Of a stretch of 54,110 nt of DNA, positions 6,151 through 20,686 are shown one piece after another. Source of the stretch: Syntrophobacterales bacterium. GTDB taxonomy: Bacteria; Desulfobacterota; Syntrophia; Syntrophales; UBA2192. The stretch is taken from assembly GCA_018053845.1 (NCBI GenBank), contig JAGPKU010000006.1:1-54110 (forward strand). Direction: 5' to 3'. A program made the position numbers and the translations under genes. How positions within the stretch are numbered: position 1 is the first letter of the stretch; every line of letters starts with the position of its first letter. Below the pieces are notes generated by a model that had not been told where the DNA came from, searched no databases, and saw only the letters and a program-made list of their open reading frames with translations.

Positions 6151-6175
6151 GGGACGGGCGTCTCACCCGTCACCC
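6151..6175. repeat. Second palindrome, inverted orientation
   Basis: GACGGG-CGTCTCA-CCCGTC (6153-6171) resembles the 6103 element in reverse orientation, with GTCTC in place of GAGAC. It contains the stop codon of the AbiEii-like gene on the minus strand. Confidence 0.55.
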
Positions 6176-6802
6176 GGCACAGTGTTTCACCCACGACTGG
6201 ACGGTCTTCCGTATTTTCTTCCAATCCACGTTCCAGAGCATACGGGGCATCCGCTCCTTGTCGGCCTGATCGAAACAGGAAAGCCCGTAAAGGATATGGC
6301 CGATGTCTTGCACATCATATTTCCTTCGATAGAAAGCCAGCATGTCGGTCAGTGAATATCTTTCCTGACCGAGTGCATCAAGGTCGATGAAATCCTTTTT
6401 CGATCCTCGCTGGGCGATGGCAGCCAGCTTCATGCAGGCCAAGTCGGCGAGCGACGCGATTGGACAGTCAACCTCCCTCCAGAGGAGCACCGGTTTGAGC
6501 AGAGGATAGGCATACTCGAAAAAGCTGAGCTGCACCCGGTATGCCCTGCCGAGAAGTGTTCCCCTTTCCGCCTGGCCCGTCACGAAGGGGCTCTTTTCCT
6601 GTCTCAGGGATGCCGCCAGACGCAGGGGGTCGGCCGGCTGCACCGACGTAAACCAGCCGAGGTCCACCGATCGGCGGTGGCCCAATTGAAGCGCCATCGC
6701 CGTTCCGCCGCCGAGATAGAAGCCTTCCTGGAAGGCAAACGGCCCCAAGCGCCGGAGGGCCCTTTTCCGGGCAGCCGTCAGGCTATCGGCATGAATCTTC
6801 AT
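6170..6802 (-). CDS. AbiEii-like nucleotidyltransferase with altered DxD
   Basis: Protein of 210 residues from ATG 6802. The segment FYLGGGTAMALQLGHRRSVD (residues 28-47) is the hallmark of the AbiEii/AbiGii nucleotidyltransferase family, which includes toxins of abortive-infection systems. The family motif usually continues Asp-x-Asp; here it reads Asp47-Leu-Gly49, so the second metal-binding Asp is missing. A later KLAAIAQRGSKKDFIDL segment is also typical. It overlaps a 62-residue upstream ORF by ATGA. Activity is uncertain: it could be an inactivated toxin or an enzyme with a shifted acidic residue. Confidence 0.8.
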   Translation of the reverse strand: MKIHADSLTAARKRALRRLGPFAFQEGFYLGGGTAMALQLGHRRSVDLGWFTSVQPADPLRLAASLRQEKSPFVTGQAERGTLLGRAYRVQLSFFEYAYPLLKPVLLWREVDCPIASLADLACMKLAAIAQRGSKKDFIDLDALGQERYSLTDMLAFYRRKYDVQDIGHILYGLSCFDQADKERMPRMLWNVDWKKIRKTVQSWVKHCAG

Positions 6803-6987
6803 CGGAAGGCCCTTCGATCCCACACCTGTCGAGTCTTGCCTCGGAGCCGATCGTCGACGTCTTGTTCGGGCAGGTCCAGGACAAGTTCCCAGAACCTGAG
6901 CTTCGGCGGACTCAACCCGGCTCCCCGTCGGTCCACGAGCCAGTTCCTGAGATCCCGATCGGAAAATCTCGTCCGAAGCCACTGCAC
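6799..6987 (-). CDS. Small ORF coupled to AbiEii-like gene, unknown
   Basis: Sixty-two residues from GTG 6987, rich in Arg and Trp (MQWLRTRFSDRDLRNWLVD). Its TGA overlaps the ATG of the next gene, which suggests co-translation. It sits where AbiEii-type genes often have a partner or antitoxin. The ribosome site is weak, and the start is only 16-20 bp from the left end of the transposase-associated repeat, so the true N-terminus may have been cut by that element. I do not recognise a family. Confidence 0.45.
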   Translation of the reverse strand: MQWLRTRFSDRDLRNWLVDRRGAGLSPPKLRFWELVLDLPEQDVDDRLRGKTRQVWDRRAFR

Positions 6988-7003: not shown

Positions 7004-7745
7004 AAAAGGGGACAGGCAACATTTTCAATATTGGAGTTTTTTGGGCCGGCCTCTTGGTCTCATAGTCGATTCCAGACCAAATTCCCGGCCCACTTGATCC
7101 CGCCACGTCGACGACCCGAATGGCGCCTGGCGATTCACACATTCTCGAACCCGCTCAATTTCCGACTCTGTCCACTTCGCGTCTACGTAACGAGTCCAGA
7201 ATTCCGGCAGAGCGATTGGGACCTCTGCAAGGAGCCGCTTGGGGGATTCTCCAATCCTTTCCCGGTGGGATGACCACAGCCAATCTCTCGCCGTGGCCGT
7301 CAAACCGGAACGAACGGGGTTTCCCTCCACGTAGCGCATCAGAACCAGAAGATGCTCGTCCCTCTGCACAGGAAAGCTTTTGAAGCGACCTTGCCAAACG
7401 TGTCCGCTGACCTCGTAATATTTATTGTAGCGGCGAACGTGGCTTGTCATGATCAAGTGCATCCAGGCGGAAAGTGCCGTGCCCTGTTCCGGGGATACGA
7501 CGAAGTGAAAATGGTTGGGCATCAGACAATAGGCATAGAGCTTGACGGAAAAACGTTCTGTCGCGCTTGCCACCAAATCCATGAACACATCGTAATCCGG
7601 ATCCTTATGGAATACCTTCTGTTTGTTATTTCCCCTGTTGATGACGTGATAGACAAAGCCGTCAGATAGTCCTCTCGCGATTCTCGGCACTTTGACTCAC
7701 CTTTCGATTGACGCATCAAGCACAAAATGTTGCCTGTCCCCATTT
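7004..7745. mobile_element. RAYT unit with 18-bp inverted flanks
   Basis: GGGGACAGGCAACATTTT (7008-7025) and its exact inverse AAAATGTTGCCTGTCCCC (7724-7741) bracket one REP-associated tyrosine transposase gene. Flanking A/T bases extend the match (GAAAAGGGGAC on the left, GAGAAAATGGGGAC as read from the right). The transposase stop codon abuts the left repeat. REP-type palindromes with the same GGGGAC core occur at 13470-13491 and 14106-14127. Confidence 0.75.
7025..7690 (-). CDS. REP-associated tyrosine transposase (RAYT, Y1_Tnp)
   Basis: Protein of 221 residues. The start PRIARGLSDGFVYHVINRGN and the metal-binding motif MPNHFHFVV (His60, His62) define the IS200-like/REP-associated transposase family. 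A catalytic tyrosine is expected in RRYNKYY, around residues 92-97. These single-strand nucleases recognise and spread REP palindromes, and are usually single-copy domesticated genes rather than classic insertion sequences. The 18-bp inverted flanks and the REPs in neighbouring genes fit this. It separates the AbiEii pair from the RiPP-like operon. Confidence 0.92.
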   Translation of the reverse strand: MPRIARGLSDGFVYHVINRGNNKQKVFHKDPDYDVFMDLVASATERFSVKLYAYCLMPNHFHFVVSPEQGTALSAWMHLIMTSHVRRYNKYYEVSGHVWQGRFKSFPVQRDEHLLVLMRYVEGNPVRSGLTATARDWLWSSHRERIGESPKRLLAEVPIALPEFWTRYVDAKWTESEIERVRECVNRQAPFGSSTWRDQVGREFGLESTMRPRGRPKKLQY

Positions 7746-7747
7746 TC

Positions 7748-8917
7748 TCAACGGCGGGCCAGGGCCCGGAGGATCGGCTCGCTGTGGCGGCCGGCCATGT
7801 GCAGGGGCCGGAACAGATAATAGAAGGGGGCGAGCACGTCGGGCAGGGCAGAGGGGTTCCACTCGCCCGCGGCCAGTGTCGCCATCAGCCTGCCCGCGAA
7901 AAGAAGCTGGTCCCGCCTGCAGTCCTTGGCCTTCAGGTAGAAGAGATACCGGGCCGGGTCGACGTCCGGGTTCACCGGGGTTTTCGCGATGACCGCGGCG
8001 GCCTGCCTTGCGAGGCAGGACACCATGAGGTCCGCATCGATCCGGTCCGTGATTTCCTGCGGCAGGCGCGAACCCGCCAGTCGCTCCGCCAGGAGAAGCC
8101 CGAGCAGCAGGAGCCGCGTCACACCGCAGCGCCCCGCCAGCTCCAGGGTCCGCTGCAGGTCCGGGGGCGTCGGCGACGCGAGCAGGCCACCCACGTCGCA
8201 CACCCATCCCAGCTTGCACCACATGTGCTTGGCGCCGTGCACGCAGAGTATCAGGAGCGTCTCCTCCGGCGGGAGCGCCGGAAAGTCCAAACCGCCCCAT
8301 GTGCGCTTCTCCAGTCTGGACCAGATGTCGAGCCTCTCGTGGTCGAACCCGAAATAGCCGGGCACGACGGACCATTGAAGTTCGACCTGAACCTTCCCGT
8401 CACGGCGGACGAAAGCCGTTTCGTACTCGGTTCGCCGGTGCGCGGAAAGCCGCGCGCCGTCCAGCTCATGATGCGTCCTGTATCCCAGCGCGTCGAGGGC
8501 CTTCATGGCCCTGGGGAGCTTCTCCTTCGGCACGAGGATGTCGAGATCCTTCGACTGCCGGTGCGCCGGGTCCCCGTAGAGCATCACGGACAGGGCAGGC
8601 CCCTTGAAGGGGTACGCCGGAATGCCGTAGGACTCGAAGGCGCGCAGGACCCGGGCCAGCTCCGTGGCGAGCAGAAGCGACCGGGCCGTGTTGTTCTGAT
8701 GAAGACCGCGGAGGCGGCTCAGGGCGGCAGGCGGGACGGTCCCGTTCAGAGTGGCCCGAAGGACCCCGCAGACTGACGGGATCACGTTGTGCCACTCGCA
8801 GAGGCTTGCGAAGCTGTTCCAGTCCAAGTTTGCCGGCAAGGCAGGCGGTGGAGCAAGCCCGTCCTTTCGGAATGCGCCCCTGACAAGGGTCGACAGAACA
8901 TCATTTTCCCGTCGCAT
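7748..8917 (-). CDS. Nucleotidyltransferase family protein (NTP_transf_5 type)
   Basis: Protein of 389 residues from ATG 8917, overlapping the end of the glycosyltransferase gene by 17 bp. The segment PAYPFKGPALSVMLYGDPAH followed by RQSKDLDILV is the KGxxL...R..D.D pattern of the uncharacterised nucleotidyltransferase family often found in RiPP and exopolysaccharide clusters. It could transfer a nucleotide or prime a sugar; the substrate is unknown. It is the last gene of the long minus-strand run starting at 19744. Its end lies next to the RAYT element. Confidence 0.8.
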   Translation of the reverse strand: MRRENDVLSTLVRGAFRKDGLAPPPALPANLDWNSFASLCEWHNVIPSVCGVLRATLNGTVPPAALSRLRGLHQNNTARSLLLATELARVLRAFESYGIPAYPFKGPALSVMLYGDPAHRQSKDLDILVPKEKLPRAMKALDALGYRTHHELDGARLSAHRRTEYETAFVRRDGKVQVELQWSVVPGYFGFDHERLDIWSRLEKRTWGGLDFPALPPEETLLILCVHGAKHMWCKLGWVCDVGGLLASPTPPDLQRTLELAGRCGVTRLLLLGLLLAERLAGSRLPQEITDRIDADLMVSCLARQAAAVIAKTPVNPDVDPARYLFYLKAKDCRRDQLLFAGRLMATLAAGEWNPSALPDVLAPFYYLFRPLHMAGRHSEPILRALARR

Positions 8918-9926
8918 GGAGACACACCTCGTGTGTCGGCTCCTGCACGGTGGCGGCACTCATGCCTGCCCCGAGCCTGCCGTTCAGAAGAGGCCCGATC
9001 TTTCGGGCGTAGAGCCGCGGGATGACATGCGCCGGGTGCATGGCGGCCGCGGCAAGCAGGGTCAGAATCATCCTGAACGGGCGCTGCTCGGCGTAGTGCA
9101 GGGCCGCGTTCTGGTAGAGCCGCTCGCCCGTCTCCCGGCGGACGATGCGGGCCCGTTCACCGACGGGGCGGCGCTTTTCGCTCTCGATAAAGTTGTCGAC
9201 GGACGGCTCCGTCAGGCCCTTCACCCGCGCCTCGCCGCATGCGATCGCCCACCGGTGCAGAAATCGCTGCCTTGCATTTTGCGTCATCGTGAGAGACGCC
9301 CCGTGCAGCCGGTAGAGAAGCAGGGGTTCGGGAACCTTGAGCATGAGGTGCCCTCTCTCGGCCATCCGGATCCACAGGTCCACATCCTCGGCCGGCGCAA
9401 AGGCCTCCCGGTAGCCCCCGACGGCCAGGACGGTCTCGCGGTGCATCAGGGTGGAGGAATTCACGAAGTAGACAGGACGGTTTCCCCGGACAAGCCGGTC
9501 ATACTCGGCGGGCGTGAACGGGCCTTCCGTTCCCACGAGACCCAGGGGCTTCCCTGCATGGTTGATGAAGCAGGCGAGCGTGCCGACGATCTTCGCGACG
9601 GGGTATCGTGCAAGGAAGGCGATCTGGCGCTCAAGCTTCTCTGGCAGGAAAACGTCGTCGGCGTCGAGACGCGCCACCCACGCGGCGTGTGCTTCTTCGA
9701 GGCCCCGGTTCGCCGCGGCGGCAACGCCCCGGTTCTCCTGGCACAGGCAGCGGACGCGGGGGTCTATCGCTGCATAGTGACGGAGGATCGAGGCCGTCGC
9801 ATCCGTGGAGCCGTCGTCGACGATCAGCAGCTCCAGGTCCCGGTGCGTCTGGGACAGAACGCTTTCGATCGCCTGCGCGAGGTATCGCTCCCCGTTATGG
9901 ACGGGTATGACGACGGAGACTTTCAT
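8901..9926 (-). CDS. Family 2 glycosyltransferase
   Basis: GT-A fold enzyme of 341 residues. VSVVIPVHNGERYLAQAIES, the nucleotide-binding VDDGSTD and the metal motif ARLDADDV are all in place, as is the acceptor-side EDVDLWIRM. It transfers a sugar from a nucleotide-sugar to an unknown acceptor. It overlaps the ABC exporter gene by 32 bp and the nucleotidyltransferase by 17 bp, so the three are probably translated together. In this operon it may glycosylate the modified peptide or a carrier lipid; that is inference. Confidence 0.88.
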   Translation of the reverse strand: MKVSVVIPVHNGERYLAQAIESVLSQTHRDLELLIVDDGSTDATASILRHYAAIDPRVRCLCQENRGVAAAANRGLEEAHAAWVARLDADDVFLPEKLERQIAFLARYPVAKIVGTLACFINHAGKPLGLVGTEGPFTPAEYDRLVRGNRPVYFVNSSTLMHRETVLAVGGYREAFAPAEDVDLWIRMAERGHLMLKVPEPLLLYRLHGASLTMTQNARQRFLHRWAIACGEARVKGLTEPSVDNFIESEKRRPVGERARIVRRETGERLYQNAALHYAEQRPFRMILTLLAAAAMHPAHVIPRLYARKIGPLLNGRLGAGMSAATVQEPTHEVCLHATGK

Positions 9927-11760
9927 AGGGGATGACCTTGCCTTTTCTCCCGTCGGGGATCAACTGGCACTCGGCGAGTTTCCGGTAGGTGTCGCTCGTT
10001 TTCAGGAGCTCGGCGTGCGTGCCCTCGGCGACCAGGCGGTTTTCGTCCAGCAGCAGGATCCGGTCGCAGCCGACAACCGTCGAGAGCCGGTGGGCGACGA
10101 CGAAGAGCGTTTTGCCGCGGGTCTCGCGGGGCAGCGCCTCGAGAAGCGACTTCTCGGTCAGGCCGTCGAGGGCCGCCGTGGGCTCGTCGAGGACGAGGAT
10201 GTCGGGGTCCTTCACCAGGGCCCGGGCGATGGCGAGCCGCTGCTTCTGCCCCTCGGAGAGGTTCACCCCCTTTTCGCCGACCTCGCTTTCATAGCCGCCG
10301 GGCAGGCCCAGGATGAAGTCGTGGATGCCCGCAACCCGGGCCGCTCGGGTGATCTCCTCGTCCGTCGCCCCGGGGTTTCCGTAACGGAGGTTCTCCCCGA
10401 TCGTCCCGGACATCAGGATCGGGCTCTGCGAGACATAGCCGATCCGCTGCCTCAGCGACTGAACGTTGTAATTCCCGGCGGGCCTGCCGTCGTAGAGGAC
10501 CTCGCCCGCCGTCGGGCTGTAGAACCGGAGCAGGAGGCTCAAAAGCGTCGTCTTGCCCGCGCCGCTGGGGCCGACAACGGCAACGTGCTCGCCCGGTCGC
10601 ACATGGAAGGAAACATCCCGGAGGACGGGGTTTACAGGGTCGTAGGCGAAAGAGACGTTCCGGAACTCGACCTCCCCCCTGAGCGACCCGACCACGGCTC
10701 CATCGCCGGCTTTTCCTTCCGGTTCCACGTCGAGGAGGGCCGTGAGGCGTTCGAGAGATGCGCGGATATTCTGCATCTGCAGCCCCGTCGAGGCGAGCGA
10801 CTGCGCCGGGCCGAAGACGCGGCCCAGGTAAGCCTGGAAGGCGAAGAGAGACCCCAGGCTCCAGTGGCCCGTGATCACCCAGTACGCGCCGATCGCGAAG
10901 ACGCAGAAGTTCACGAGGCTCGGCGTCGACGAGAGGGCAAGCCCCGTCACGGAGCCCACCACGGAGCGCTCCGCCGACAGGCGGAAGACCTCCCGGAGGC
11001 CGGCCAGGATCTTCCCGACGGCCCTCTCCTCGGCCGCAAAGGCCTTGACGAGAGGAACGGAGTGGAGCGTCTCCTGGAAGCCGCTCATGTAGCGGGCGTT
11101 CTCCTCGCTGCCCGCGTGGTTCAGGGCGTGCATCCGGTCGGAGAAGCGCCGCAGGGCGAGCAGGTACACGGGCACGGCGGCGAGGGCCGCCAGCGCGAGT
11201 CTCCACTCCAGCCAGAACAGGAGGCAAAGCCCTCCGATGAAATACAGGACGTTCGTCAGAATGCCCACGAGGCTCCCCGAGAGAAACCACGTCACCCCGC
11301 CGATGTCGCCCGTCATGCGGGCCATCAGGTAGCCCGCCTGGTTTTTGTCGAAAAAGGATTTCGGGAGCCGGAAGGAATGCTCCAGAACCTGCTTCTGGAT
11401 GTCGAGGGTCACTTCCTGGCTGTAGCGCAGGAAGAACCAGTTCTGGAACAGGCCCAGGGCCCGCGTGAAGACGGCGATGGCCGCCATCAGCAGCAGCACC
11501 CAGGGAAGAAGCGACAGCTGTTTCCCTAGGATCACGTCGTCGATGACAAAGCGGGAAACGAGCGGCATGGGGAAGGCCATGAGGGCGTTGAGCAGGATGA
11601 ACCCCGCGCCCAGTGCTCCTTTCTTCCAGTGCCGCCGGAAGAACGGCCGGTGGCGGCGCAGGTTCTCACCGATTCCGGCGTAGTTCTTCCCACCGGCGAT
11701 CCGGTCCTCCGGCGCCTTGCGCGCAAGCCCGCTTTTGAGACATTCAATCCAGGTTTTCAT
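9895..11760 (-). CDS. ABC exporter, fused membrane and ATPase domains
   Basis: Protein of 621 residues with an N-terminal six-helix ABC exporter domain (about residues 50-330) and a C-terminal ATPase: Walker A VVGPSGAGKTT, signature LSEGQKQR, Walker B ILVLDEPTAALDG, H-loop VAHRLS. It should pump a substrate out of the cytoplasm as a homodimer. There is no N-terminal C39 peptidase domain, so leader removal would need a separate protease; the S26-type peptidase in the same gene run is a candidate. Location makes it the likely exporter of the peptide product. Confidence 0.92.
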   Translation of the reverse strand: MKTWIECLKSGLARKAPEDRIAGGKNYAGIGENLRRHRPFFRRHWKKGALGAGFILLNALMAFPMPLVSRFVIDDVILGKQLSLLPWVLLLMAAIAVFTRALGLFQNWFFLRYSQEVTLDIQKQVLEHSFRLPKSFFDKNQAGYLMARMTGDIGGVTWFLSGSLVGILTNVLYFIGGLCLLFWLEWRLALAALAAVPVYLLALRRFSDRMHALNHAGSEENARYMSGFQETLHSVPLVKAFAAEERAVGKILAGLREVFRLSAERSVVGSVTGLALSSTPSLVNFCVFAIGAYWVITGHWSLGSLFAFQAYLGRVFGPAQSLASTGLQMQNIRASLERLTALLDVEPEGKAGDGAVVGSLRGEVEFRNVSFAYDPVNPVLRDVSFHVRPGEHVAVVGPSGAGKTTLLSLLLRFYSPTAGEVLYDGRPAGNYNVQSLRQRIGYVSQSPILMSGTIGENLRYGNPGATDEEITRAARVAGIHDFILGLPGGYESEVGEKGVNLSEGQKQRLAIARALVKDPDILVLDEPTAALDGLTEKSLLEALPRETRGKTLFVVAHRLSTVVGCDRILLLDENRLVAEGTHAELLKTSDTYRKLAECQLIPDGRKGKVIPYESLRRHTRP

Positions 11761-11857
11761 GCTGATGAAAATGGGGACCGACCATTCTTTCCCCAGAAGA
11801 TGCCAGAATCATGCCCGGTTAGGTTCAATCGGGAAAGGCCCTATCGCTTCGTCCGGA

Positions 11858-12061
11858 TCACCCGGGTCCCGTCGAGACGACGCGGTGGACGACACGCTCC
11901 CCCTGCCCCGGCGACGTGAAGATGATGTCGTCGCCCCGCCGCAGTTCCTCGGCACGGCATGGGGCGAATCGGATCCGGTCCCCCGGCTGAAAGAGGGGCC
12001 GCATGCTGTCGCCCCTCACGAACAGGGACGGTCCTGCATCAGCTGGTGAGCGCATGGTCAT
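11858..12061 (-). pseudogene. Truncated S26 peptidase, duplicate of 13495-14082
   Basis: Sixty-seven codons from ATG 12061, overlapping the methyltransferase end by 23 bp. From RGDSMRPLF to VVHRVVSTGPG it is nearly identical to the full peptidase at 13495-14082, and the DNA matches over about 150 bp (11868-12013 versus 13918-14058). It stops where the full protein continues for about another 130 residues. Ser19 and His59, the expected catalytic pair, are retained, so a reduced function cannot be excluded. Most likely the relic of a duplication. Confidence 0.75.
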
Positions 12062-13310
12062 GGCCCCCTTTCCCCGGTCTTTGCGCCGGGACATCAGCCT
12101 CAGTCCTAAACGACGGGGCGACGCGATTACCGTCTCGGCCAAGCAGTTGCCCGAGGCAGTGCAGAACCGATTCGGCGCTTGGCCCCAACTGGGTCAGGCA
12201 ATCCGCACCCCGCCCCCCTTCTTTAAAGAAAGAAGCAACCGCTTCTGCATGCCGCTCGAGGTCCATGCAAAGAATTTCCACATCCTCCAGGGTGCCGTCG
12301 GTCACGGAAAGATCAACCGGCGCCGTCTCCGGCGCTCCGATCTCTCCCTCCGCCTCCCGGCCCGATGCGCCTTCCTTTTTCGTCACGACAGCCAGTACAT
12401 AGCGGGGATCGGCCTGGTACCGGCAGGAGAGAACTTCGAAGGTCCGGGAAAGCTCCGACGACAGGGACTCCGCGGTGTGGCAGCGGCTGAACAGCCCGTA
12501 TTGCAGCCGCTCCTCGCAGGCATCCCTTTCCCCGAAGCAGAAATCGAGCGAGACCTGACCCCGCAGCCACGCCACCATGGAATCGGGCCACGAGGAGCCC
12601 ATCAGGAACCACCAGCAGGGATAAATCTTCCGCTCGGCAACGACCAGGCCGATCCCGCCCGGCCGCAGGACCCTGGCCAGTTCTCTTTGGAGCGCCACCG
12701 CACGCTTGGCATCCGGGAGCCCTCCATAGACCTCGAGGAGAAAACCGTCGAAAGCGCCCGGCCGAAATCCCAGCTCCATCATGTCCATCCCGGCAAAAAC
12801 GGCAGGGACGCGCAGAAGACCAGCCCAGTCCCGGGCCAGCTTCACGAGTGACAGGTCGGTGTCGACCCCGACGACGCGCAGACCCTCTTTCGCCCAGGCC
12901 AGGCACTCGCGACCTGTCCCGCACCCGATATAGAGGACACGGCCGTCCCGGCCAAGATATTTGCACAAGGCATTCCGGCGGTCCCCAGCACACGGCGATT
13001 CGTCCACGTCGAAGGTGCCGCTCTCAAGCCGCATCTGCAAATCCCGCTGCAGGGTTTTCAGATTCCGTTTCCACTGCTCCCTGCAGGCGTTGACGATCTC
13101 CCCCTGGGAGGATGTCTTCTTCAGAAGCGCGAGGAGCTTTTTCTGGAGAAAATCATCGAAATCCCAGAGCTGCCGGTGGAAGAACCCCTGTCCAGACTGA
13201 CGCGTCGCAAACCGGACGAAGGGCTTCATGGCAGGGCTGGAAATGGAGATCCGCAAGGAGAGATCGAGAATTCTTGACACACGATCTTCGGGATTCTTCG
13301 CGCCCCTCAT
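12039..13310 (-). CDS. Class I SAM-dependent methyltransferase
   Basis: Protein of 423 residues. The SAM-binding motif VLYIGCGTGRECLAW and the acidic end of strand 2, VVGVDTD, lie in the middle third; RVLRPGGIGLVVAE is the usual post-strand-4/5 region. An N-terminal stretch of about 100 residues and a C-terminal tail of about 100 residues flank the domain and are not recognised. It lies inside the peptide cluster, between relics of duplicated genes, so methylation of the peptide or of a sugar is plausible but unproven. Confidence 0.82.
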   Translation of the reverse strand: MRGAKNPEDRVSRILDLSLRISISSPAMKPFVRFATRQSGQGFFHRQLWDFDDFLQKKLLALLKKTSSQGEIVNACREQWKRNLKTLQRDLQMRLESGTFDVDESPCAGDRRNALCKYLGRDGRVLYIGCGTGRECLAWAKEGLRVVGVDTDLSLVKLARDWAGLLRVPAVFAGMDMMELGFRPGAFDGFLLEVYGGLPDAKRAVALQRELARVLRPGGIGLVVAERKIYPCWWFLMGSSWPDSMVAWLRGQVSLDFCFGERDACEERLQYGLFSRCHTAESLSSELSRTFEVLSCRYQADPRYVLAVVTKKEGASGREAEGEIGAPETAPVDLSVTDGTLEDVEILCMDLERHAEAVASFFKEGGRGADCLTQLGPSAESVLHCLGQLLGRDGNRVAPSFRTEADVPAQRPGKGGHDHALTS

Positions 13311-13363
13311 GACATCACCGACGCGCTCCCGGCCGGAAGCCTGCCGCCTGTACCGTGTTCGTC

Positions 13364-13472
13364 CTAACTCCGCTGCCTTCGCGTCTCGGGAAACAGGCCC
13401 TGGAAGTCGGCCTCTTCACAGAACCAGTGGGGAGCCCACACATCGCGGCGCCGGTAGTAGCCTCTAACGAAA
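13364..13472 (-). pseudogene. Relic of a second scmF (C-terminal end only)
   Basis: The minus strand encodes GYYRRRDVWAPHWFCEEADF then GLFPETRRQRS and a stop. This matches the C-terminus of the scmF product at 15460 (NYYRSRNLWAPFWFCEEARS, GLFPETRIRR). Nothing else of a radical SAM enzyme is left. A REP palindrome (13470-13491) sits exactly at the upstream break. Evidence that a second scmF gene once stood here. Confidence 0.8.
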
Positions 13473-13491
13473 AAGGGGACTGTCCCCATTT
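13470..13491. repeat. REP palindrome, copy 1
   Basis: GGGGAC-T-GTCCCC (13475-13487) with A-rich and T-rich edges. Shares the AAAAGGGGAC core with the RAYT flanks and is nearly identical to 14106-14127. It marks the edge of the scmF relic and the 3' end of the peptidase gene. Confidence 0.8.
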
Positions 13492-13494
13492 CTT

Positions 13495-14082
13495 TCATGG
13501 CAGGGCCCGCTCGTCGACGAAGACCCTGAAGGGCCGGCGAATGGTCCACGTGCCGGCGCCCGGGGGGCGCCTGCCGATGATGCGCCGTCCCAGGACGAGT
13601 TGCATTTCCCTTGCCCCGTCACGCTCGAAGGTGATGACCCTCGGGCGAATGGCGGGGGGCAGCAGCGCCCGGAAAAACCCGCAGCGCGCAAGGCCCCGGT
13701 AGCAGGGGTTCAGGGCGTAGGACGCCAGGTGATCCGCCCTCCGGGCGGCGCGGATGCAGGCGGCCATCAGGCGCCCCGCGGGGCCGCCCGCGACGGACAT
13801 CACTTTCCCCCGGCGCTCGACGGCCACGGCGCGGCCGATGAGGTCCGCCTTTCCCAGGACCCAGGCATCGGCGCACGGGTTCGCGTCCCCCCGGGTCCGG
13901 ATCCCCCCGGGCCCCGTCGAGACGACGCGGTGTACGACACGTTCCCCCTGGCCCGGCGACGTGAAGATGATGACGTCGCCCCGCCGCAATTCCTCGGCAC
14001 GACAGGGCGCGAATCGGATCCGGTCCCCGGGCCGGAAAAGAGGACGCATGCTGTCTCCCCGGCAGAAGATCTCACGTTCCAT
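13495..14082 (-). CDS. ER-type S26/S24-like signal peptidase, soluble
   Basis: Protein of 195 residues that begins almost at the active site: RGDSMRPLF (Ser11), a second GD at RRGDVIIF, and VVHRVV (His51). The Ser/His arrangement is that of ER/archaeal-type signal peptidases (SipW-like), which use His rather than Lys as base. No transmembrane anchor precedes Ser11, which is unusual for a signal peptidase and suits a cytoplasmic leader peptidase. The start overlaps the end of scmC by 11 bp. Within the cluster it is the best candidate to cut the precursor leader. A truncated copy exists at 11858. Confidence 0.75.
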   Translation of the reverse strand: MEREIFCRGDSMRPLFRPGDRIRFAPCRAEELRRGDVIIFTSPGQGERVVHRVVSTGPGGIRTRGDANPCADAWVLGKADLIGRAVAVERRGKVMSVAGGPAGRLMAACIRAARRADHLASYALNPCYRGLARCGFFRALLPPAIRPRVITFERDGAREMQLVLGRRIIGRRPPGAGTWTIRRPFRVFVDERALP

Positions 14083-15022
14083 GGGCTGATGCCCCCCGCC
14101 CGCGGAAAAGGGGACTGTCCCCTTTTTCCAATACCTCCTCGATCTTTTCCCAGAAGCGGCCCGTGAGGCTCACCCGGAGCCGGTAAGCCGGCAAGGCCAG
14201 GGAAAAATCGACGGCATTCTCGAAAGCCCTTGTTGCGATATTCATCGGGTCTTCTCTCAGCACGAAAGGTCCCACGGACCAGAAGACCTCCATGGCGGCA
14301 CGCCTGCAGGCAACGGCCGCCTCGCCTCTCCCCGCCGGAGTTGCCTCGTCCGCTTCCGACTGATCCAGGAAGAAGATTGCCTCCAGCGGCACCGATCGCC
14401 GGACGTCCCAGGTGCTTTCACTCCCCGCGCGAAGATCGCTCCAGGTGGGAAGCGCGTGCGCCCGGTAGTACCCGGAATCGTCACGAATCACGAGAGCAAG
14501 ATCATCGGCAAGCGCTCTCCAGGGCGGCGGCAGGCGCCTGCAGCACGTCGATTTGCCGATCCCGCCGCGGCCGGCGAGCAGCACTCCCCGCCCGTTTCTC
14601 TCCACCAACGCAGCATGGGCGGGGAAGCCTCCCATCCGAAGGGCCTCAAGGTAAAGGGGCAGCAGAACGTGGCGCATGCTCTCGAGATCCGTGACTTCGT
14701 CTCGCGCGGGAGGAAGGAGGCACAAGATCTCCTGCCCTGCCCTCGGACGGTCGAGAACGGCGCCGGGAACCCGCCGGAAATCCCATACCACTCCTTCCCA
14801 GGCCGGCCTGTCCGACGCCCCGGGGCCGGGCCTCATCCCGGCTGCGCGCTTCAACGTCACGGTTTCAGCGTACCCGCAGCCTGCACTCGGGGAAAGCCCC
14901 AAGATGACGGAGAACCGCTCGAGCCAGTCCTTCGCTTCCGCCGTCGCCTGCAGCACCCATCCTGCCCTGTCGTCCATGCTCAGTTCGTACATCGCCTTGG
15001 TCTCGTCGAAAAGATCCTTCAT
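14072..15022 (-). CDS. scmC: HPr-kinase-like cassette protein ScmC
   Basis: Protein of 316 residues with a P-loop GRGGIGKSTC at about 151-160, followed by WRALADDLALV and by PTWSD...TWDVRRSVPLEAIFFL. This pattern is that of the ScmC family of the SynChlorMet cassette, related to HPr kinases (assigned from memory of the family). Role unknown; it may phosphorylate or nucleotide-activate the peptide. It follows the Cys-rich peptide gene after 12 bp. The last residues (EKGDSPLFRGRG) are encoded by a REP palindrome at 14106-14127, so the C-terminus has been changed by REP insertion. Confidence 0.8.
   Translation of the reverse strand: MKDLFDETKAMYELSMDDRAGWVLQATAEAKDWLERFSVILGLSPSAGCGYAETVTLKRAAGMRPGPGASDRPAWEGVVWDFRRVPGAVLDRPRAGQEILCLLPPARDEVTDLESMRHVLLPLYLEALRMGGFPAHAALVERNGRGVLLAGRGGIGKSTCCRRLPPPWRALADDLALVIRDDSGYYRAHALPTWSDLRAGSESTWDVRRSVPLEAIFFLDQSEADEATPAGRGEAAVACRRAAMEVFWSVGPFVLREDPMNIATRAFENAVDFSLALPAYRLRVSLTGRFWEKIEEVLEKGDSPLFRGRGASAHGT
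14106..14127. repeat. REP palindrome, copy 2, inside scmC
   Basis: AAAAGGGGAC-T-GTCCCCTTTT is a perfect inverted repeat around a single T. It is read through as EKGDSPLF in scmC. Same core as 13470-13491 and the RAYT flanks. Confidence 0.85.
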
Positions 15023-15034
15023 GGCCGGGACGGA

Positions 15035-15424
15035 TCAGGCACAACCGCCGTTGCACTCTTCATAGGCAGAGTACCCGTTGAGACAGACGCACGACACCCG
15101 TCCCCCGGTGTAGCAAAGTGCCGCCGCATTGGCTCCGCCGGTACACTGGCATGCCACCGTGATACCAGAGCCGCCGCCGTAATACCCGGTGGACGCGCCG
15201 TTTGAGCAGCAGATATAACACACCGAGCTGTAGCTGCAGGCCCCGGCCCCTTGTTCGCAATAGCCCGTATAATTTCCGTCCTGGCACCAGGCGGTAGGGA
15301 TGCAGGAGCCGAGCATGCACTCGTTGACACAGCTGCCGCCATTGCAGTATCCCGAGGCGCCGAGGGCGCTTCCCGAGGCCATGTCGACGAGAACGGGTTT
15401 TTCGTATTTCCGCCGCTTACCCAT
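15035..15424 (-). CDS. Cys/Gly-rich candidate RiPP precursor
   Basis: Protein of 129 residues with 17 cysteines. A short basic leader-like start, MGKRRKYEKPVLVDMASG, has no cysteine. From residue 27 on cysteines recur every few positions (27, 32, 36, 41, 47, 56, 63, 69, 72, 73, 92, 94, 104, 112, 114, 124, 128), among many Gly, Ser, Tyr and Ala. The core opens with CNGGSC and closes with CNGGC. There is no signal peptide. GAGGTGA lies 7-8 nt before ATG 15424. It sits between scmF and scmC in one strand-wise run with a PqqD-like protein and two SPASM radical SAM enzymes. This is the expected context for a modified-peptide precursor. Function is inferred; no family recognised. Confidence 0.8.
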   Translation of the reverse strand: MGKRRKYEKPVLVDMASGSALGASGYCNGGSCVNECMLGSCIPTAWCQDGNYTGYCEQGAGACSYSSVCYICCSNGASTGYYGGGSGITVACQCTGGANAAALCYTGGRVSCVCLNGYSAYEECNGGCA

Positions 15425-15459
15425 TAGGATGTCACCTCGCGTTAAGACTCGCCGGGAAC

Positions 15460-16629
15460 CTATGCCGCTGCGGCGCTGTCGGCTGCAACCGCTTCATTTC
15501 GCCTGATCCGTGTTTCGGGGAAAAGGCCTTCGCTCCGCGCTTCCTCGCAGAACCAGAAGGGCGCCCAGAGGTTGCGGCTCCGGTAATAGTTCTGGGCGAT
15601 GCAGCTGCCCAGGCAGACTCCTTTCATGAGACACTCGCCGCACACCCCTTCGAGGCGGCGGGGCATCCCATCGCGTATCTCATTCAGGACGGGGCTGTCT
15701 TTCCATACCCCGGAAAGGTCGTCCTTCGCTGCATGGCCGAAGACCAGCTCCGGGACTGACTCCCCGATCCCGCAGAGGGCATAGGAACCACCGGCCAGAA
15801 CGCCCAAGATGTGCCGGATGCCGCAGATGCCGCAGTCGCCGTCCGGACTGAACAGCCTGCCCAGGGCGCGAAAGGCGACCGGATGGCCGTAGAACAGCCG
15901 GACCTTCGCCGTCCGGGCCAGGTCGTTTTCGACCCACTTCCCCAGGGCGATCAGTTCCTCGACGCCGAGAGTCTCCCCCTTCTCGTGCATCTTCTCGCCA
16001 CGCGCCGTGGGCTGGACGAGGTTGAACTTCACCGAAGAGGCGCCCAGCGATTCGGCCAAGCGGACGACCGCCTCGATCTGCTCCACGTTTCGGCGCATGA
16101 GGGTCATGATCAGCTGCGGCCGGATGCCTGTCGCGACGAGATTCCGGATGCCTGCGACGGCGGCATCGAAGCAGCCCTTGACGCCGCGGACCCACTCGTG
16201 GGTTCCGGCGTCGGCCCCGTCGAGGCTCACGGAGATGTGGTAGAGGCCCGAGCGGGCGAGTTCCCGCGCCAGCTCCGGCGTGCAGAGCACGCCGTTGGTC
16301 TCCATGTTGAAGCGGATCTTCTCTTCCCGGAGGATCTCCAGGATTTCCCCGATCCGCGGGTGCATGAGCGGCTCGCCCCCGGTGAGCTTCACGGACGAGA
16401 GGCCGAGAGGTTTCGCCTGCTCCAGGATGTGCCTGAACAGCTCCGGCTCGACGGCCGGGTACTGCCGTTTGGCCGTCTGGTGGGGCGGCTCGATCCAGCA
16501 GTGCCGGCACCGCAGGTTGCAGCCCCCGGTGAGGTAGAAGTAGAGCGTATTGAGGGGCGGGACGGGACGGGCGGCCGTTTCGACCCCGCCGCGGCGTTCG
16601 AGAACAGGCGCTGTCTGATTCGCACTCAC
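15460..16629 (-). CDS. scmF: Radical SAM/SPASM peptide maturase ScmF
   Basis: Protein of 389 residues. The start LNTLYFYLTGGCNLRCRHCW places the radical SAM cluster motif CxxxCxxC at Cys37, 41 and 44. KLTGGEPLMHPR is the SAM-binding GGE motif. The C-terminal SPASM region has CGICG, CGIGE and GVCGECLMKGVCLGSC for auxiliary clusters. The HCWIEPP..and tail NLWAPFWFCEEA fit the ScmF branch as I remember it. GTG 16629 is preferred (GGGGAGG 9 nt upstream) over GTG 16635. It overlaps the membrane protein stop codon region. Likely cross-links or epimerises the Cys-rich peptide. Confidence 0.88.
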   Translation of the reverse strand: MSANQTAPVLERRGGVETAARPVPPLNTLYFYLTGGCNLRCRHCWIEPPHQTAKRQYPAVEPELFRHILEQAKPLGLSSVKLTGGEPLMHPRIGEILEILREEKIRFNMETNGVLCTPELARELARSGLYHISVSLDGADAGTHEWVRGVKGCFDAAVAGIRNLVATGIRPQLIMTLMRRNVEQIEAVVRLAESLGASSVKFNLVQPTARGEKMHEKGETLGVEELIALGKWVENDLARTAKVRLFYGHPVAFRALGRLFSPDGDCGICGIRHILGVLAGGSYALCGIGESVPELVFGHAAKDDLSGVWKDSPVLNEIRDGMPRRLEGVCGECLMKGVCLGSCIAQNYYRSRNLWAPFWFCEEARSEGLFPETRIRRNEAVAADSAAAA

Positions 16630-16631
16630 GA

Positions 16632-18311
16632 TCACGATCCTCCCCGGCCGGCGTCGGCCGCAGTCAATTCAGGGGCGTTCACCCTCACCAGATAATCCCT
16701 TTTCCCCTTGCAGGAGCCGCCGCAGCAGGATTTCGACCCCGGCGGGAGGGGAAATTCCGGCGATTTCTCCATGCTGTACGGGTCAAACCCCCCGAGGCCC
16801 ATCGGGTTTCCCGTCCAAGCGTAGGCGTTTTCGACCTTCTCCGCCGCGAGCGTCCGGAAGAGGCGATCTTGATCGCCGGGACTCCGCGCCACGAGAAAAA
16901 CGCGGTCGAAAAAGAGCGGGCCTGCGTGCTCCATCTTGCCCGTGTCATCGAACACGACGGCATCTCCCGACGAGGTGTGCTTCTCCAGGAATGCAATCCG
17001 TGCGGCATTGTAGTCCTTGTATTTCAGGAATCCGTCCCTTGACTCCTGGATCCCGTTCACGAAAGCAACCCCGCAGAAGAAGGCCAGCACGAGGCACATC
17101 CCGCGGGCTGCAAAAATGGCCTTTCTCTCCAGGGCAATCAGGAGGATGACGAAGGGCACAACGGGCAGCCATACGGAAACGACGATCCATGCCCCCGGGC
17201 GCAGGATCGCGGCGCCGAGGGCGAGGCAGACAACGATGGTGGCCGTCAGGATTGCCTCGAGAGCCCCTTGCCCCTTCTTCAGCCTCTCGAGCCGCCCGGT
17301 AACACCGCAGAAAACGAAGAGCACGGCCGGGAAGAGGGCCATGAGATGGGACACGGTGATCCGGGCCGCCGTCATGAGCACGGCGCCGAACAGCAGGACG
17401 ACGGACAGGACCGACAGAACCGCTTTTCGGACCTGGCCGCTCCCTTCCCGCCGGGACAGGATGAACAGGGCGCACGATAGGGCAAGGCCCCCGCCAAGGG
17501 CCGCAAGGCGGATCGGGGAAAGAGCGTAGAACGGCAGAAGGAGCCGGAGGTAGGGGCCGGGGAAACGGCCGTGAAAAACAACGTCATGGAGGATCAGCAC
17601 GATCAGACAAAACAAACCGCCGGCAAAGACCGTCCACAGATCGCCCAGGCGTCTATGCGCAAACAGGACGACTGCCGAGCCGAGATAATAGGAAAAGACG
17701 ACGGCGAGGCACTCGATCCTGACGATCGCCGAAGTCCCCACCAGCACCGATGCGAGGAACAGTTTCGCCCAGGAAGGGTTGCCCCCGAAATGGCCCGCCA
17801 GAAGCCAGAGCGCCGAGACGATCAGCAACAGGGAAAGGGCCGTCCCCGAGAACTGAAAGCCCTGCATCAAGACGGGGGAACCGAGAAGAAAGGCCGCAAG
17901 CAGGAGCCAGTAGAGGAACTCCCTCTGCATCACCCGGTCCAGGATCAGGCCCAGGACGAGCGCCGAGAAAAAGACGAAGAGGATCGGCGCGAAGTCGACG
18001 GCCCGCTCGCCGAAAACCGGGTAAAGGAGGCTCGCCGTCCAGGGAAAGAGCGGGGGCGGAATCGCGTAGAGTTTTCCGCCGCGGGATTCGAAAAAGCCCC
18101 GAGGTCCCGAAAGATCCTCCGCCTCGAAGCCGAGGGCAAGAGCCGGCGCGTGGATCTCGAAAGACCCGTTCAGGGCGAAGTTTTTCATCTGGACATAGTG
18201 GACGCCTTCCTCGTTGGATGCGAGGCCCGGTGGCGCCAGCACGTACACCGCCCCCGCGAGCGCCGCGAGGAGGACAACGAGAAAAAGTCTTTCACCGGGA
18301 TTTCTGTTCAT
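16632..18311 (-). CDS. Polytopic GT-C-like membrane glycosyltransferase
   Basis: Protein of 559 residues from ATG 18311. About 10-12 hydrophobic helices follow an N-terminal anchor. The first exported loop contains LASNEEGVHYVQMKNFAL, which resembles the acidic catalytic loop of GT-C/PMT-type transferases that use lipid-linked sugars. A soluble C-terminal part of about 130 residues ends with a Cys motif SCCGGSCKGKRDY. It lies between scmE and scmF. It may glycosylate the exported product at the outer face; the enzyme class is a moderate call and the role is inference. Confidence 0.65.
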   Translation of the reverse strand: MNRNPGERLFLVVLLAALAGAVYVLAPPGLASNEEGVHYVQMKNFALNGSFEIHAPALALGFEAEDLSGPRGFFESRGGKLYAIPPPLFPWTASLLYPVFGERAVDFAPILFVFFSALVLGLILDRVMQREFLYWLLLAAFLLGSPVLMQGFQFSGTALSLLLIVSALWLLAGHFGGNPSWAKLFLASVLVGTSAIVRIECLAVVFSYYLGSAVVLFAHRRLGDLWTVFAGGLFCLIVLILHDVVFHGRFPGPYLRLLLPFYALSPIRLAALGGGLALSCALFILSRREGSGQVRKAVLSVLSVVLLFGAVLMTAARITVSHLMALFPAVLFVFCGVTGRLERLKKGQGALEAILTATIVVCLALGAAILRPGAWIVVSVWLPVVPFVILLIALERKAIFAARGMCLVLAFFCGVAFVNGIQESRDGFLKYKDYNAARIAFLEKHTSSGDAVVFDDTGKMEHAGPLFFDRVFLVARSPGDQDRLFRTLAAEKVENAYAWTGNPMGLGGFDPYSMEKSPEFPLPPGSKSCCGGSCKGKRDYLVRVNAPELTAADAGRGGS

Positions 18312-18327
18312 GTTTTCCGTGTCCGTT

Positions 18328-19446
18328 TCAGCACAACAGGGCCCGGTCGGGCAGCCTTCCGCCCTCTGCAAGGAATGTCCGCAGGCAGGCGTCGGGGCTC
18401 GGGTGGTTGACCTCGCCCATGAGCGTGTAGGAGAGCCCCGGGCAGTTGCCCGTGCAGAAATTCACGTACGGGCACCCCTCGCAGAAGGAAAAGCCGGAGA
18501 GGGGAATCTCGTCGCGCCGGCGCAGGGCGTTGAGGGCCGCATGCTCCCTCCAGATCACGCCGAGATCATCGCGGTTGATCCTGCCGAGTTCGATGTGGGA
18601 CAGCATCGTGCAGGGCGTGATCGCGCCGTCGGCCCTCACGGCAAGCCCCGACCGGTAGCATCCGCAGCCGGTGAGATATCCCCGCTTCGGCGATGTCAGC
18701 TGCTTTTCCCCGTTCCGGGCATCCTCCATGTCCCACCAGCCCCTGGCTTCCGCCAGCGGTCCCGCCATGGCGTTGATCCGCCCGTTGTATTTCTTCGTCA
18801 GCCGAAGCAGGGTCTCCATGGCAACCATCCGGTCTTCCGTCGTCAGCTGGACCATCTCGGCGTTCTTGCGGCACAGGCCCATGGCGCCGGCGCTGTTGGT
18901 CCCGAAGGAGGGAAGGCCGATGTCCTCGAGGAGAAACCGGGCGATGGCCTCGAGGTCGCGGACGTTCTTTCGGTGAATGGTCACGCGGACCGCGGCGCGG
19001 ACGCCGTTTCGCCGCAGGGTCAGAAGCCCCTCCACGGCCCTGGCGAAGCTTCCCCTGCCCCGCATGGCGTCGTGGCTCTCCGGCATGGAGCCGTCGATGG
19101 AGACCTGGACGTAGTTGCAGCGCCCCGTCGCTGCGAGAAAGGCCGCCGTCTCGTCGGTGATGAGCGTCCCGTTCGAAAGGACCGCGAAGCGCATGCGGTT
19201 TTTCACGATGCCGCCGATAATTTCCTTGAAATCCTCGCGGATGAAAGGCTCGCCTCCCGCCAGCGTCACCTCAGTGACGGCACAGCGGTTGAGTTCCCCG
19301 AAGAACCGGAGCCACTCTTCCGCCGGGAGGTCGCCGTCGGCGTCGCCCGCGCTCTCGAAGTGGTAGCAGTAGCGGCACCGCAGGTTGCAGCGGTTCGTGA
19401 TGTCGATGTCAACCTTCTTCGGGGTCCGCATCAGCCGCATGGACAT
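18328..19446 (-). CDS. scmE: Radical SAM/SPASM peptide maturase ScmE
   Basis: Protein of 372 residues. ITNRCNLRCRYCYHF gives CxxxCxxC at Cys20, 24 and 27; VTLAGGEPFIRED is the SAM site. The SPASM region shows GCGCYRSG, a Cys in ITPCTML, and CEGCPYVNFCTGNCPG. The overall order and the ending HPSPDACLRTFLAEGGRLPD match the ScmE family of the SynChlorMet cassette as I recall it. ATG 19446 lies 1 nt after the scmD stop, so the two are translationally coupled. With the PqqD-like partner it should modify the ribosomal peptide. Confidence 0.88.
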   Translation of the reverse strand: MSMRLMRTPKKVDIDITNRCNLRCRYCYHFESAGDADGDLPAEEWLRFFGELNRCAVTEVTLAGGEPFIREDFKEIIGGIVKNRMRFAVLSNGTLITDETAAFLAATGRCNYVQVSIDGSMPESHDAMRGRGSFARAVEGLLTLRRNGVRAAVRVTIHRKNVRDLEAIARFLLEDIGLPSFGTNSAGAMGLCRKNAEMVQLTTEDRMVAMETLLRLTKKYNGRINAMAGPLAEARGWWDMEDARNGEKQLTSPKRGYLTGCGCYRSGLAVRADGAITPCTMLSHIELGRINRDDLGVIWREHAALNALRRRDEIPLSGFSFCEGCPYVNFCTGNCPGLSYTLMGEVNHPSPDACLRTFLAEGGRLPDRALLC

Positions 19447-19447
19447 T

Positions 19448-19744
19448 TCACCCTGCCGCTTCCGCCGCATCCAGCTCGTAGCCCACGAGCCCCTGCTGCT
19501 CGAGGGCCGCGATGAACTGGCGGGTGTGCTCGGCGGCGTCCTCGGGAACATCCTCGGCTTCATCGCGGAGACTCTTCACGATGTCCTCCACGCCGTGCCT
19601 GCCGTCGAGGAGCTTCCAGATGAAGACCCCCGTGGGGTTGAGGCCGAAGGCGTTGCCCGTGTCGGGGTCGAAGAGGATCGCCCAGTCGTCGAATTCCTCG
19701 CGCAGCACGATCAGGGGGTTGGCGATGGGGTTTTTAGCTTCCAC
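19448..19744 (-). CDS. scmD: PqqD-like peptide-recognition protein ScmD
   Basis: Protein of 98 residues with the PqqD/RRE fold pattern: DWAILFDPDTGNAFGLNPTG, then VFIWKLLDGRHGVEDIV and a C-terminal helical part. Such proteins bind the leader of a precursor peptide and present it to the radical SAM enzyme. It matches the ScmD branch. It is the first gene of the minus-strand run; the ~200 bp upstream hold a palindrome (19779-19797) but no promoter I can defend. Confidence 0.88.
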   Translation of the reverse strand: MEAKNPIANPLIVLREEFDDWAILFDPDTGNAFGLNPTGVFIWKLLDGRHGVEDIVKSLRDEAEDVPEDAAEHTRQFIAALEQQGLVGYELDAAEAAG

Positions 19745-19954: not shown

Positions 19955-20356
19955 CTAAAAGGCAACCGTTTTCAGGGACGTGTGGCGGGACAGGAGTTCG
20001 TAATGCCGGTCCGAGTGCATCAGCGTTGCGCAGTGGCGCATGGCAACGGACGCAATCAGGGTATCCAGCGCCGGGATGTTGAGGCCCCGCTGGCGGCAAA
20101 GAAAGGCCGTTTCCCAGGCTTTCTGCCAGGCCTTTGCATCCAGCGACAGGGCGGGAAGCGCCGAAAAATCCTTCAGCAGCATGTTATATTCTTTTTGCGA
20201 CCTTGCGCCTCTCAACAGCTCGAAGATGACGATCTCCGTCATGCAGACCCGGTCGTCGGCGATCAGGCCTGCCATGCGGACCTTCAAGGAGTCGTTCCCC
20301 CCCCGGAAAAAATTGACCCAGACGGTCGTATCCACCAGGAATCGTTCATCGCTCAT
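19955..20356 (-). CDS. vapC: VapC-type PIN-domain toxin, right module
   Basis: PIN domain of 133 residues: FLVDTTVWVNFF, VIFELLRGARS and PALDTLIAS carry the expected acidic residues. It overlaps the antitoxin gene by 11 bp. It aligns along its length with the left vapC (shared E.LRGAR..K.Y and D.LIAS). Transcribed toward the peptide cluster, as is the left module. Confidence 0.88.
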   Translation of the reverse strand: MSDERFLVDTTVWVNFFRGGNDSLKVRMAGLIADDRVCMTEIVIFELLRGARSQKEYNMLLKDFSALPALSLDAKAWQKAWETAFLCRQRGLNIPALDTLIASVAMRHCATLMHSDRHYELLSRHTSLKTVAF

Positions 20357-20552
20357 GCTCTCTGTACCTTTCCACTTCCTCGGGGGTCAATTCCGTCAGG
20401 GCCTTGCCGTAAAGACCGGCCAGGTGATCCCGCCTCTTTTTTCGGATCAGCTCCCGCAGGGAATGGTTGACCAGGTCCTTCTTCGTCCGGATCCCCGTCA
20501 GCGCCCGCGCCTCTTTCAGCAACGCTTCGTTGATGTCCAAAGTGGTTCTCAT
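20346..20552 (-). CDS. vapB: VapB-type antitoxin, right module
   Basis: Sixty-eight residues, MRTTLDINEALLKEARALTG, with the same N-terminal DNA-binding pattern as the left antitoxin and a basic second half. AAGGAGG lies 7 nt before ATG 20552. Overlap with vapC suggests coupled translation. Probably autoregulatory at the promoter just upstream. Confidence 0.85.
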   Translation of the reverse strand: MRTTLDINEALLKEARALTGIRTKKDLVNHSLRELIRKKRRDHLAGLYGKALTELTPEEVERYREHER

Positions 20553-20572
20553 AATGCGCCTCCTTGAGGCAT

Positions 20573-20601
20573 ATTATTATGCAATTTATTGTGCCTGTCA
20601 A
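20573..20601 (-). promoter_or_regulatory. Promoter of the right VapBC module
   Basis: On the minus strand TTGACA (20601-20596), 17 bp, AATAAT (20578-20573), about 20 bp before the antitoxin start. The region is clearly more AT-rich than its surroundings. Confidence 0.75.
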
Positions 20602-20686
20602 GCCTGGAAATGTTTGATCCTTTACAAAAAAGTGATTCTGTGGTCTACTTCGGGGCATTCAAAGGCTCATCCGGAATGGAGATGCC

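Follow-up and report, generated by a model that had tools for sequence, protein, structure and literature searches.

Does the SynChlorMet (Scm) cassette of radical S-adenosylmethionine (SAM) enzymes belong to a complete pathway for a ribosomally synthesized and post-translationally modified peptide (RiPP), with its own precursor, leader protease and exporter? The question is raised by a cluster at positions 7748–19744, on the minus strand, of a 54,110-nucleotide contig (JAGPKU010000006.1; referred to here as the window) from the 2.65 Mb genome of a Syntrophobacterales bacterium (assembly GCA_018053845.1). The cassette has so far been a bioinformatic orphan: its enzymes are named, and the model of its precursor is very narrow. 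No paper on the Scm system was found in the open literature, a search that covered few subscription journals and is thus weak evidence of absence.

The cluster consists of eleven minus-strand genes which, in the direction of transcription, run from scmD (19744) to a nucleotidyltransferase gene (7748) in the order scmD, scmE, a GT-C-like gene, scmF, a Cys-rich open reading frame (ORF), scmC, an S26 peptidase gene, a methyltransferase gene, an ATP-binding cassette (ABC) exporter gene, a GT2 gene and a PF14907 nucleotidyltransferase gene. A sequence-only reading had named these genes in this order on one strand, and all are present and supported by Pfam or NCBIfam models, the GT-C-like protein weakly. 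The NCBIfam models for ScmC, ScmD, ScmE and ScmF, proposed there as a check, all score above their cut-offs (Table 1). The comparative evidence presented below makes it probable that the locus is a RiPP pathway in which radical SAM modification is carried out on a chassis resembling that of linear polyphosphorylated peptides (LPP). This evidence comes from the genes present, from a family of precursors, from the folds predicted for ScmD and for ScmC, and from gene linkage by co-occurrence and fusion; from it we infer binding, modification, cutting and export.

The precursor family

The small Cys-rich protein of the sequence-only reading is real, and its correct frame is 15035–15424. The ORF at 15019–15342, also considered for this role, lies in another frame, encodes 3 Cys, is without relatives and is spurious. 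The precursor begins MGKRRKYEKPVLVDMASGSALGASGYCNGGSCVNE and contains 17 Cys in 129 residues. For comparison, 395 genomes of the phylum, together with the GTDB genome set, supplied scmF loci that were reduced to 85 distinct ones; thresholds for our own profiles were set by us, and contig ends hide some genes. A regular expression for a small ORF with YxxP followed by at least two CxxG finds a match in 64 of the 85 Scm loci, compared to 3 of the 85 reversed loci. Control sequence totalling 245 kb gives four matches, and these do not resemble the family.

The family has a constant layout, in bacterial and archaeal loci alike, of a YxxP leader followed by CxxG[S/T] repeats about 10 residues apart. 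In the leaders of 77 curated precursors, the Tyr (96%) and Pro (100%) were selected for in the search, while Leu, Ile or Val at Y+5 (79%) and Leu at Y+8 (70%) were not. In the cores, Gly is found at +3 of 85% of all Cys, compared to 19% Gly overall, a contrast to which the partial selection for CxxG contributes; Ala or Pro six residues after Cys (62%) and a repeat spacing of 9–11 (218 of 281) were not selected for. Among the four precursors closest to that of the window, the Cys and Gly residues are retained and the intervening residues vary. No second precursor was found elsewhere in the window's own genome. One Scm locus from Bacteroidetes (L084, 6305–7505) carries a tandem array of five precursor genes, whose leaders are nearly identical and whose cores, of two repeats each, vary.

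Additionally, an A.[GA] motif directly precedes the first repeat Cys in 36 of the 77 precursors (15 expected by shuffling), and A-x-G is more common at loci with an S26 peptidase (20/41) than at those without (8/36; p=0.019, one of several tests and uncorrected). This enrichment would fit a signal-peptidase-like cut of the leader, and is suggestive only.

The association was also examined in the reverse direction, with a profile of 27 precursors (A6) run on the same 395 phylum genomes, of which 33 match. The precursor is found in 26 of the 27 genomes with an ScmF-like match of at least 200 bits, compared to 7 of the 368 others; the corresponding Fisher p of 3e-33 is inflated and partly circular, because many rows of the training profile come from these 395 genomes. 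The seven precursor genomes without an ScmF-like match of this strength comprise G260, where a piece of scmF cut by the contig end adjoins the precursor, three congeners of Scm genomes (G031, G078 and G116), and three weak cases. In one of these congeners (G031, locus L165), a precursor, ScmC and S26 peptidase are found with only a fragment of scmF, apparently a decaying cluster. Three genomes that did not contribute to the profile (G157, G291 and G087) have no precursor near scmF (L044, L046 and L049), yet each carries one elsewhere. The precursors of G087, G157 and G291 (L145, L164 and L170) are on contigs other than that of scmF, and in L164 the precursor is adjoined by a PF14907-type nucleotidyltransferase. 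Since these precursors are located far from scmF, some Scm systems may act in trans.

The assertion of the sequence-only reading that the cassette has no identified precursor was mistaken, as NCBIfam already holds TIGR04252, "SynChlorMet cassette protein ScmA". The idea of a precursor is therefore not new; what is added here is a much broader family and a binding motif. TIGR04252 weakly matches 9 of the 27 A6 precursors. Its cut-off is 35 bits, and the best of 10 relatives tested reaches 28.6 bits, with none above the cut-off; in the phylum, 2 of the 395 genomes match, neither above the cut-off. The window precursor is not matched by TIGR04252, or by any other NCBIfam model, even at an E-value of 10, and the search of its own genome gave no TIGR04252 match at the cluster. 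The window ORF is thus named ScmA-like rather than a member of TIGR04252. The neighbouring accessions TIGR04247 and TIGR04253, considered as models of an ScmB, are unrelated families.

It is very improbable that the Cys-rich protein is instead a stand-alone secreted or metal-binding protein, with the Scm enzymes acting on something else. Such a role would suit 17 Cys in 129 residues, and the product of the pathway is not known. Nevertheless, the family combines a conserved YxxPx[LVI] leader, of the type bound by RiPP recognition elements (RREs), with a variable core; in various phyla it accompanies scmF or is found in genomes that carry Scm genes, and within the phylum it is almost absent otherwise; and a related short peptide is modelled by NCBI as the cassette precursor ScmA.

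Leader recognition, kinase and linked genes

The YxxPx[LVI] motif is the leader motif bound by the recognition domains of lasso-type and LPP systems. In a PDB search with a profile of 28 ScmD sequences, the best match is 9x8z_B, which is LppB with its leader (E 2.7e-10); TbiB1 and TfuB1, both lasso B1 proteins, follow. The ScmD model (predicted local distance difference test score, pLDDT, 90.6) has the PqqD-like winged helix fold expected of an RRE, and its best fold matches, in a library older than 9x8z, are the TbiB1-leader and TfuB1-leader complexes (probability 1.00, TM-score about 0.7 by query length). Moreover, Asn36 and Phe77 are invariant in ScmD and align with Asn33 and Phe74 of LppB, which contact the leader proline and divide two pockets (PMC13381572). 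Long ORFs in three loci (L070 4505–5932, L110 6608–8020 and L118 5093–6538) score with both the ScmD and radical SAM profiles. These are possibly ScmD-ScmE fusions, and the ScmD profile may contain fused rows.

Phosphoenolpyruvate carboxykinase (PEPCK) and HprK share one kinase superfamily. The best sequence relatives of ScmC in the PDB are HPr kinases, and its model (pLDDT 85.5) matches the PEPCK fold with a Z-score of 14.7 over 258 residues (root-mean-square deviation 4.4). No HPr kinase is among the fold matches listed; the link to HprK is drawn from sequence and not from the fold search, because PEPCK relatives fill the list. Across 18 ScmC relatives, neither the P-loop Gly-Lys nor the DD motif varies. 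We consider it unlikely that ScmC, rather than being a peptide kinase, has a regulatory role directed at HPr-like proteins or is an ATP-binding scaffold that has degenerated. The former would agree with its clearest PDB relatives being HPr kinases, and core Ser/Thr are not enriched in kinase-bearing loci. The invariant P-loop Lys and DD motif argue against degeneracy, ScmC is fused to the predicted leader peptidase in several genomes, and the analogous LppK phosphorylates its own precursor.

In the S26 peptidase, Ser11, His51, Asp66 and Asp72 are invariant in 17 relatives, in line with the Ser, His and Asp that were tested as catalytic residues of LppS. Among 37 Scm loci with full flanks, a precursor is found in 32, ScmC in 18, S26 in 18, ABC in 19 and the nucleotidyltransferase in 14; for the 19 loci of a stricter ScmF group, the counts are 17, 15, 13, 13 and 8, respectively. 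ScmC and S26 are associated with p=5e-5 in the 37 full-flank loci. In 18 control radical SAM loci, none of ScmC, S26, ABC and nucleotidyltransferase scores above threshold. Genes for ScmC and S26 are fused, in either order, in several genomes (L051, L056, L103 and L042), and locus L063 has a fusion of S26 with the nucleotidyltransferase. From these fusions and the co-occurrence, we argue that ScmC, S26, ABC and the nucleotidyltransferase serve one pathway. The sequence-only reading had also proposed a check of the accessory genes in related genomes. The Cys-rich ORF family, ScmC, S26, ABC and PF14907 nucleotidyltransferase are found again near scmDEF in genomes that are only distantly related, and control radical SAM loci lack them; the methyltransferase (4/85), GT-C (2/85) and GT2 (2/85) do not follow this pattern. 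The recurrence of the Cys-rich family, S26 and ABC near scmDEF supports its proposal of a RiPP pathway that includes a precursor, a protease for the leader and an exporter.

A narrower system, limited to ScmACDEF, would leave the peptidase, exporter, nucleotidyltransferase and sugar genes with another function, for example in a polysaccharide locus. The scarcity of the GT-C, GT2 and methyltransferase genes (2–4 of 85 loci) is in keeping with this, as are two intergenic gaps, one of about 184 bp ahead of the methyltransferase gene and one of about 278 bp ahead of the ABC gene, and the half of the loci that are without the accessory set. This explanation is judged quite improbable, since S26, ABC and the nucleotidyltransferase recur in Scm loci of archaea, Aminicenantes, Nitrospirae and Bacteroidetes with significant mutual association, the ScmC-S26 and S26-nucleotidyltransferase fusions exist, and LPP clusters have this set as their core.

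Several observations weigh against a RiPP pathway on an LPP-like chassis. Since about half of the Scm-like loci, mostly those of a divergent ScmF group, lack ScmC, S26, ABC and the nucleotidyltransferase, none of these four is obligatory; genes for ABC transporters are, moreover, common. Only about half of the precursors of S26 loci show the predicted AxG cut motif, and the window peptide exceeds most members of its family in length and in Cys content. Finally, kinase-bearing loci show no difference from kinase-free loci in core Ser/Thr content, where an excess had been predicted.

Gene layout and lineage-specific features

The features of the cluster are summarized in Table 1. Likely start codons are ATG 19446 for ScmE (ORF open from 19563), ATG 18311 for the GT-C-like protein and ATG 8917 for the nucleotidyltransferase. 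The close gene packing described in the sequence-only reading holds in part: several junctions overlap or are a few bp apart, and two larger gaps precede the methyltransferase (about 184 bp) and ABC (about 278 bp) genes. Promoter and terminator scans of the cluster gave no signal exceeding that of shuffled sequence.

Table 1. Features of the Scm cluster in the window, in order of transcription.
Feature	Position	Strand	Evidence
ScmD, discrete PqqD-like RRE (predicted leader binder)	19448..19744	-	TIGR04248 132.6 bits, cut-off 100
ScmE, radical SAM/SPASM, CNLRCRYC	18328..19446	-	TIGR04250 591.9 bits, cut-off 400
GT-C-like membrane protein, putative sugar transferase	16632..18311	-	weak: PF09594 E=0.006; NF047440 97 bits, cut-off 200
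ScmF, radical SAM/SPASM, CNLRCRHC	15460..16635	-	TIGR04251 602.3 bits, cut-off 400; family alignment
ScmA-like precursor peptide, 129 residues, 17 Cys	15035..15424	-	translation; family of 77 curated relatives
Predicted leader MGKRRKYEKPVLVDMASGSALG, putative cut after ALG	15359..15424	-	A.[GA] motif before first repeat Cys
YEKPVL leader motif, predicted ScmD binding site	15389..15406	-	YxxPx[LVI] conserved in 77 relatives
ScmC, HprK/PEPCK-superfamily P-loop kinase (GRGGIGKST, DD)	14072..15022	-	TIGR04249 261.2 bits, cut-off 125
S26 archaeal/SipW-type signal peptidase, predicted leader peptidase	13495..14082	-	TIGR02228 54.5 bits, cut-off 51.85
Remnant of second scmF 3' end	13367..13498	-	tblastn with ScmF: 52% identity, 54 bits
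Class I SAM-dependent methyltransferase, accessory	12039..13310	-	PF08241/PF13649
MsbA-like ABC exporter	9895..11760	-	PF00664 142.9 and PF00005 122.6 bits; best NCBIfam match TIGR02204 MsbA_rel, below cut-off
GT2 glycosyltransferase	8901..9926	-	PF00535 118.3 bits
PF14907 nucleotidyltransferase	7748..8917	-	PF14907 200.7 bits, cut-off 31.2

Because they rarely co-occur with Scm loci, the methyltransferase, GT-C and GT2 genes are at best lineage-specific additions. Homologues of the methyltransferase occur in Scm loci L089, L070 and L080, where the identity is 65%, 39% and 39%, respectively; GT-C is found only in the window and in the congener G271, and a strong homologue of GT2 is found in the congener only.

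The scmF remnant of the window (739–870 in locus L001) is also present in a congener locus (L036, 8570–8797). In that locus, the region 7345–10238 contains two precursor-scmC pairs with the scmF tail between them; the window keeps the scmF tail alone, after the S26 gene. This arrangement looks like duplication and then loss of a precursor-kinase module, possibly at a palindrome. A 13-bp palindrome, GGGGACTGTCCCC, flanked by A/T runs, is found at 13475–13487 and 14110–14122, beside the scmF remnant and inside the end of scmC, respectively. The 19-bp palindrome pattern has five copies in the genome, compared to none for a reversed-pattern control, and the two scmC genes of the congener end in the same palindrome-encoded EKGDSP.

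Immediately upstream of scmD, a PIN-domain (VapC-like) protein is encoded at 19955–20356, with a small ORF in antitoxin position (20353–20658). The downstream border of the cluster is formed by an IS200-like transposase (7025–7690) and an AbiEii-type nucleotidyltransferase (6170–6982).

Proposed pathway and comparison with known systems

In the proposed pathway, the 129-residue peptide would be made ribosomally, and ScmD would bind the YEKPVL motif of its leader and present it to ScmE and ScmF, whose radical chemistry would then act on the CxxG repeats in the core. By analogy with LppK, ScmC would phosphorylate the peptide, and the S26 protease, by analogy with LppS, would cut off the leader, probably after ALG. 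The MsbA-like ABC protein would export a product that the PF14907 nucleotidyltransferase, and perhaps also GT-C, GT2 and the methyltransferase, would decorate.

The leading chemical guess, offered tentatively and with less than even confidence, is that each CxxG would become a four-residue ring closed by a thioether from Cys to the Gly alpha-carbon. It is based on streptosactin, in which a SPASM enzyme makes a Cys31-Gly34 alpha-carbon thioether (PMC8172795). We give about an even chance to the same pathway with other chemistry by ScmE and ScmF: ranthionine-type thioethers (to a beta or gamma carbon), C-C or C-O crosslinks, epimerisation or another reaction, with the Cys perhaps becoming disulfides or a metal site. 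SPASM radical SAM enzymes are known for all of these reactions, the presence of two different SPASM enzymes suggests two reactions, and the Ala or Pro at +6, conserved besides the Gly at +3, could be an acceptor. On the other hand, no other residue is paired with Cys nearly as strongly as the Gly at +3, and the streptosactin bond is a precedent for its use.

The cluster has in common with the Scm cassette as defined by NCBIfam (TIGR04248–TIGR04252) ScmC, ScmD, ScmE and ScmF above cut-off and a small Cys-repeat peptide near scmF. It differs in that TIGR04252 misses the precursor, and in that the S26, ABC, nucleotidyltransferase, glycosyltransferase and methyltransferase genes lie outside the five NCBIfam families.

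LPP are products of the lppAKBSDN genes of Paenibacillus alginolyticus, for which experiments established that LppK phosphorylates a core Ser and that LppS cuts the leader, a reaction that requires the recognition domain LppB (Popov 2026, PMC13381572). The LPP set of a SpI-like archaeal-type signal peptidase, a discrete RRE with a YxxP leader, an HprK-like kinase, an NTP transferase and an MsbA-like exporter is also encountered here. In contrast, of the LPP leader motif YxxPxVLxHQxIxFETxxS, the window precursor has the YxxPx[LVI] portion alone. LPP have phosphorylation as their primary modification, and the LPP paper concerns Bacillota and names no radical SAM enzymes, whereas the window encodes two SPASM enzymes and CxxG repeats and has relatives in other phyla and in archaea. 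By this analogy, the Scm locus would work like LPP; it is not an LPP locus, because of its two radical SAM enzymes and the missing remainder of the leader motif.

Lasso peptides of the paeninodin and pseudomycoidin type resemble the system in their YxxP/WxxP leader, B1-type RRE, and tailoring by an HprK-like kinase and nucleotidyltransferase. Neither a lasso macrolactam synthetase nor a B2 cysteine protease was found among the cluster proteins with Pfam and NCBIfam, and the locus is therefore not a lasso cluster. Streptosactin and other sactipeptides share SPASM enzymes that act on Cys, and the CxxG repeats would fit the Cys-x-x-Gly thioether of streptosactin. What sets Scm apart from sactipeptides is the length of its repeat arrays, the RRE as a separate protein, and the presence of a kinase and a signal-peptidase-like protease.

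The comparison thus yields a precursor family of wide scope, a motif for leader binding, a probable kinase, a probable protease for the leader and a specific guess at the chemistry, each of which can be put to the test in E. coli. It links radical SAM peptides to the chassis of lasso peptides and LPP, a chassis whose range now also takes in methanogenic archaea and a large number of uncultured phyla. Scm may even be a widespread, unrecognised class of bacterial and archaeal RiPPs, a proposal we regard as possible but doubtful in its full form: Cys-Gly ring arrays every 10 residues or so would be phosphorylated by ScmC and then capped or glycosylated, on a chassis shared with lasso peptides and LPP, for which lasso closure, phosphorylation only and radical crosslinking would be alternative modules.

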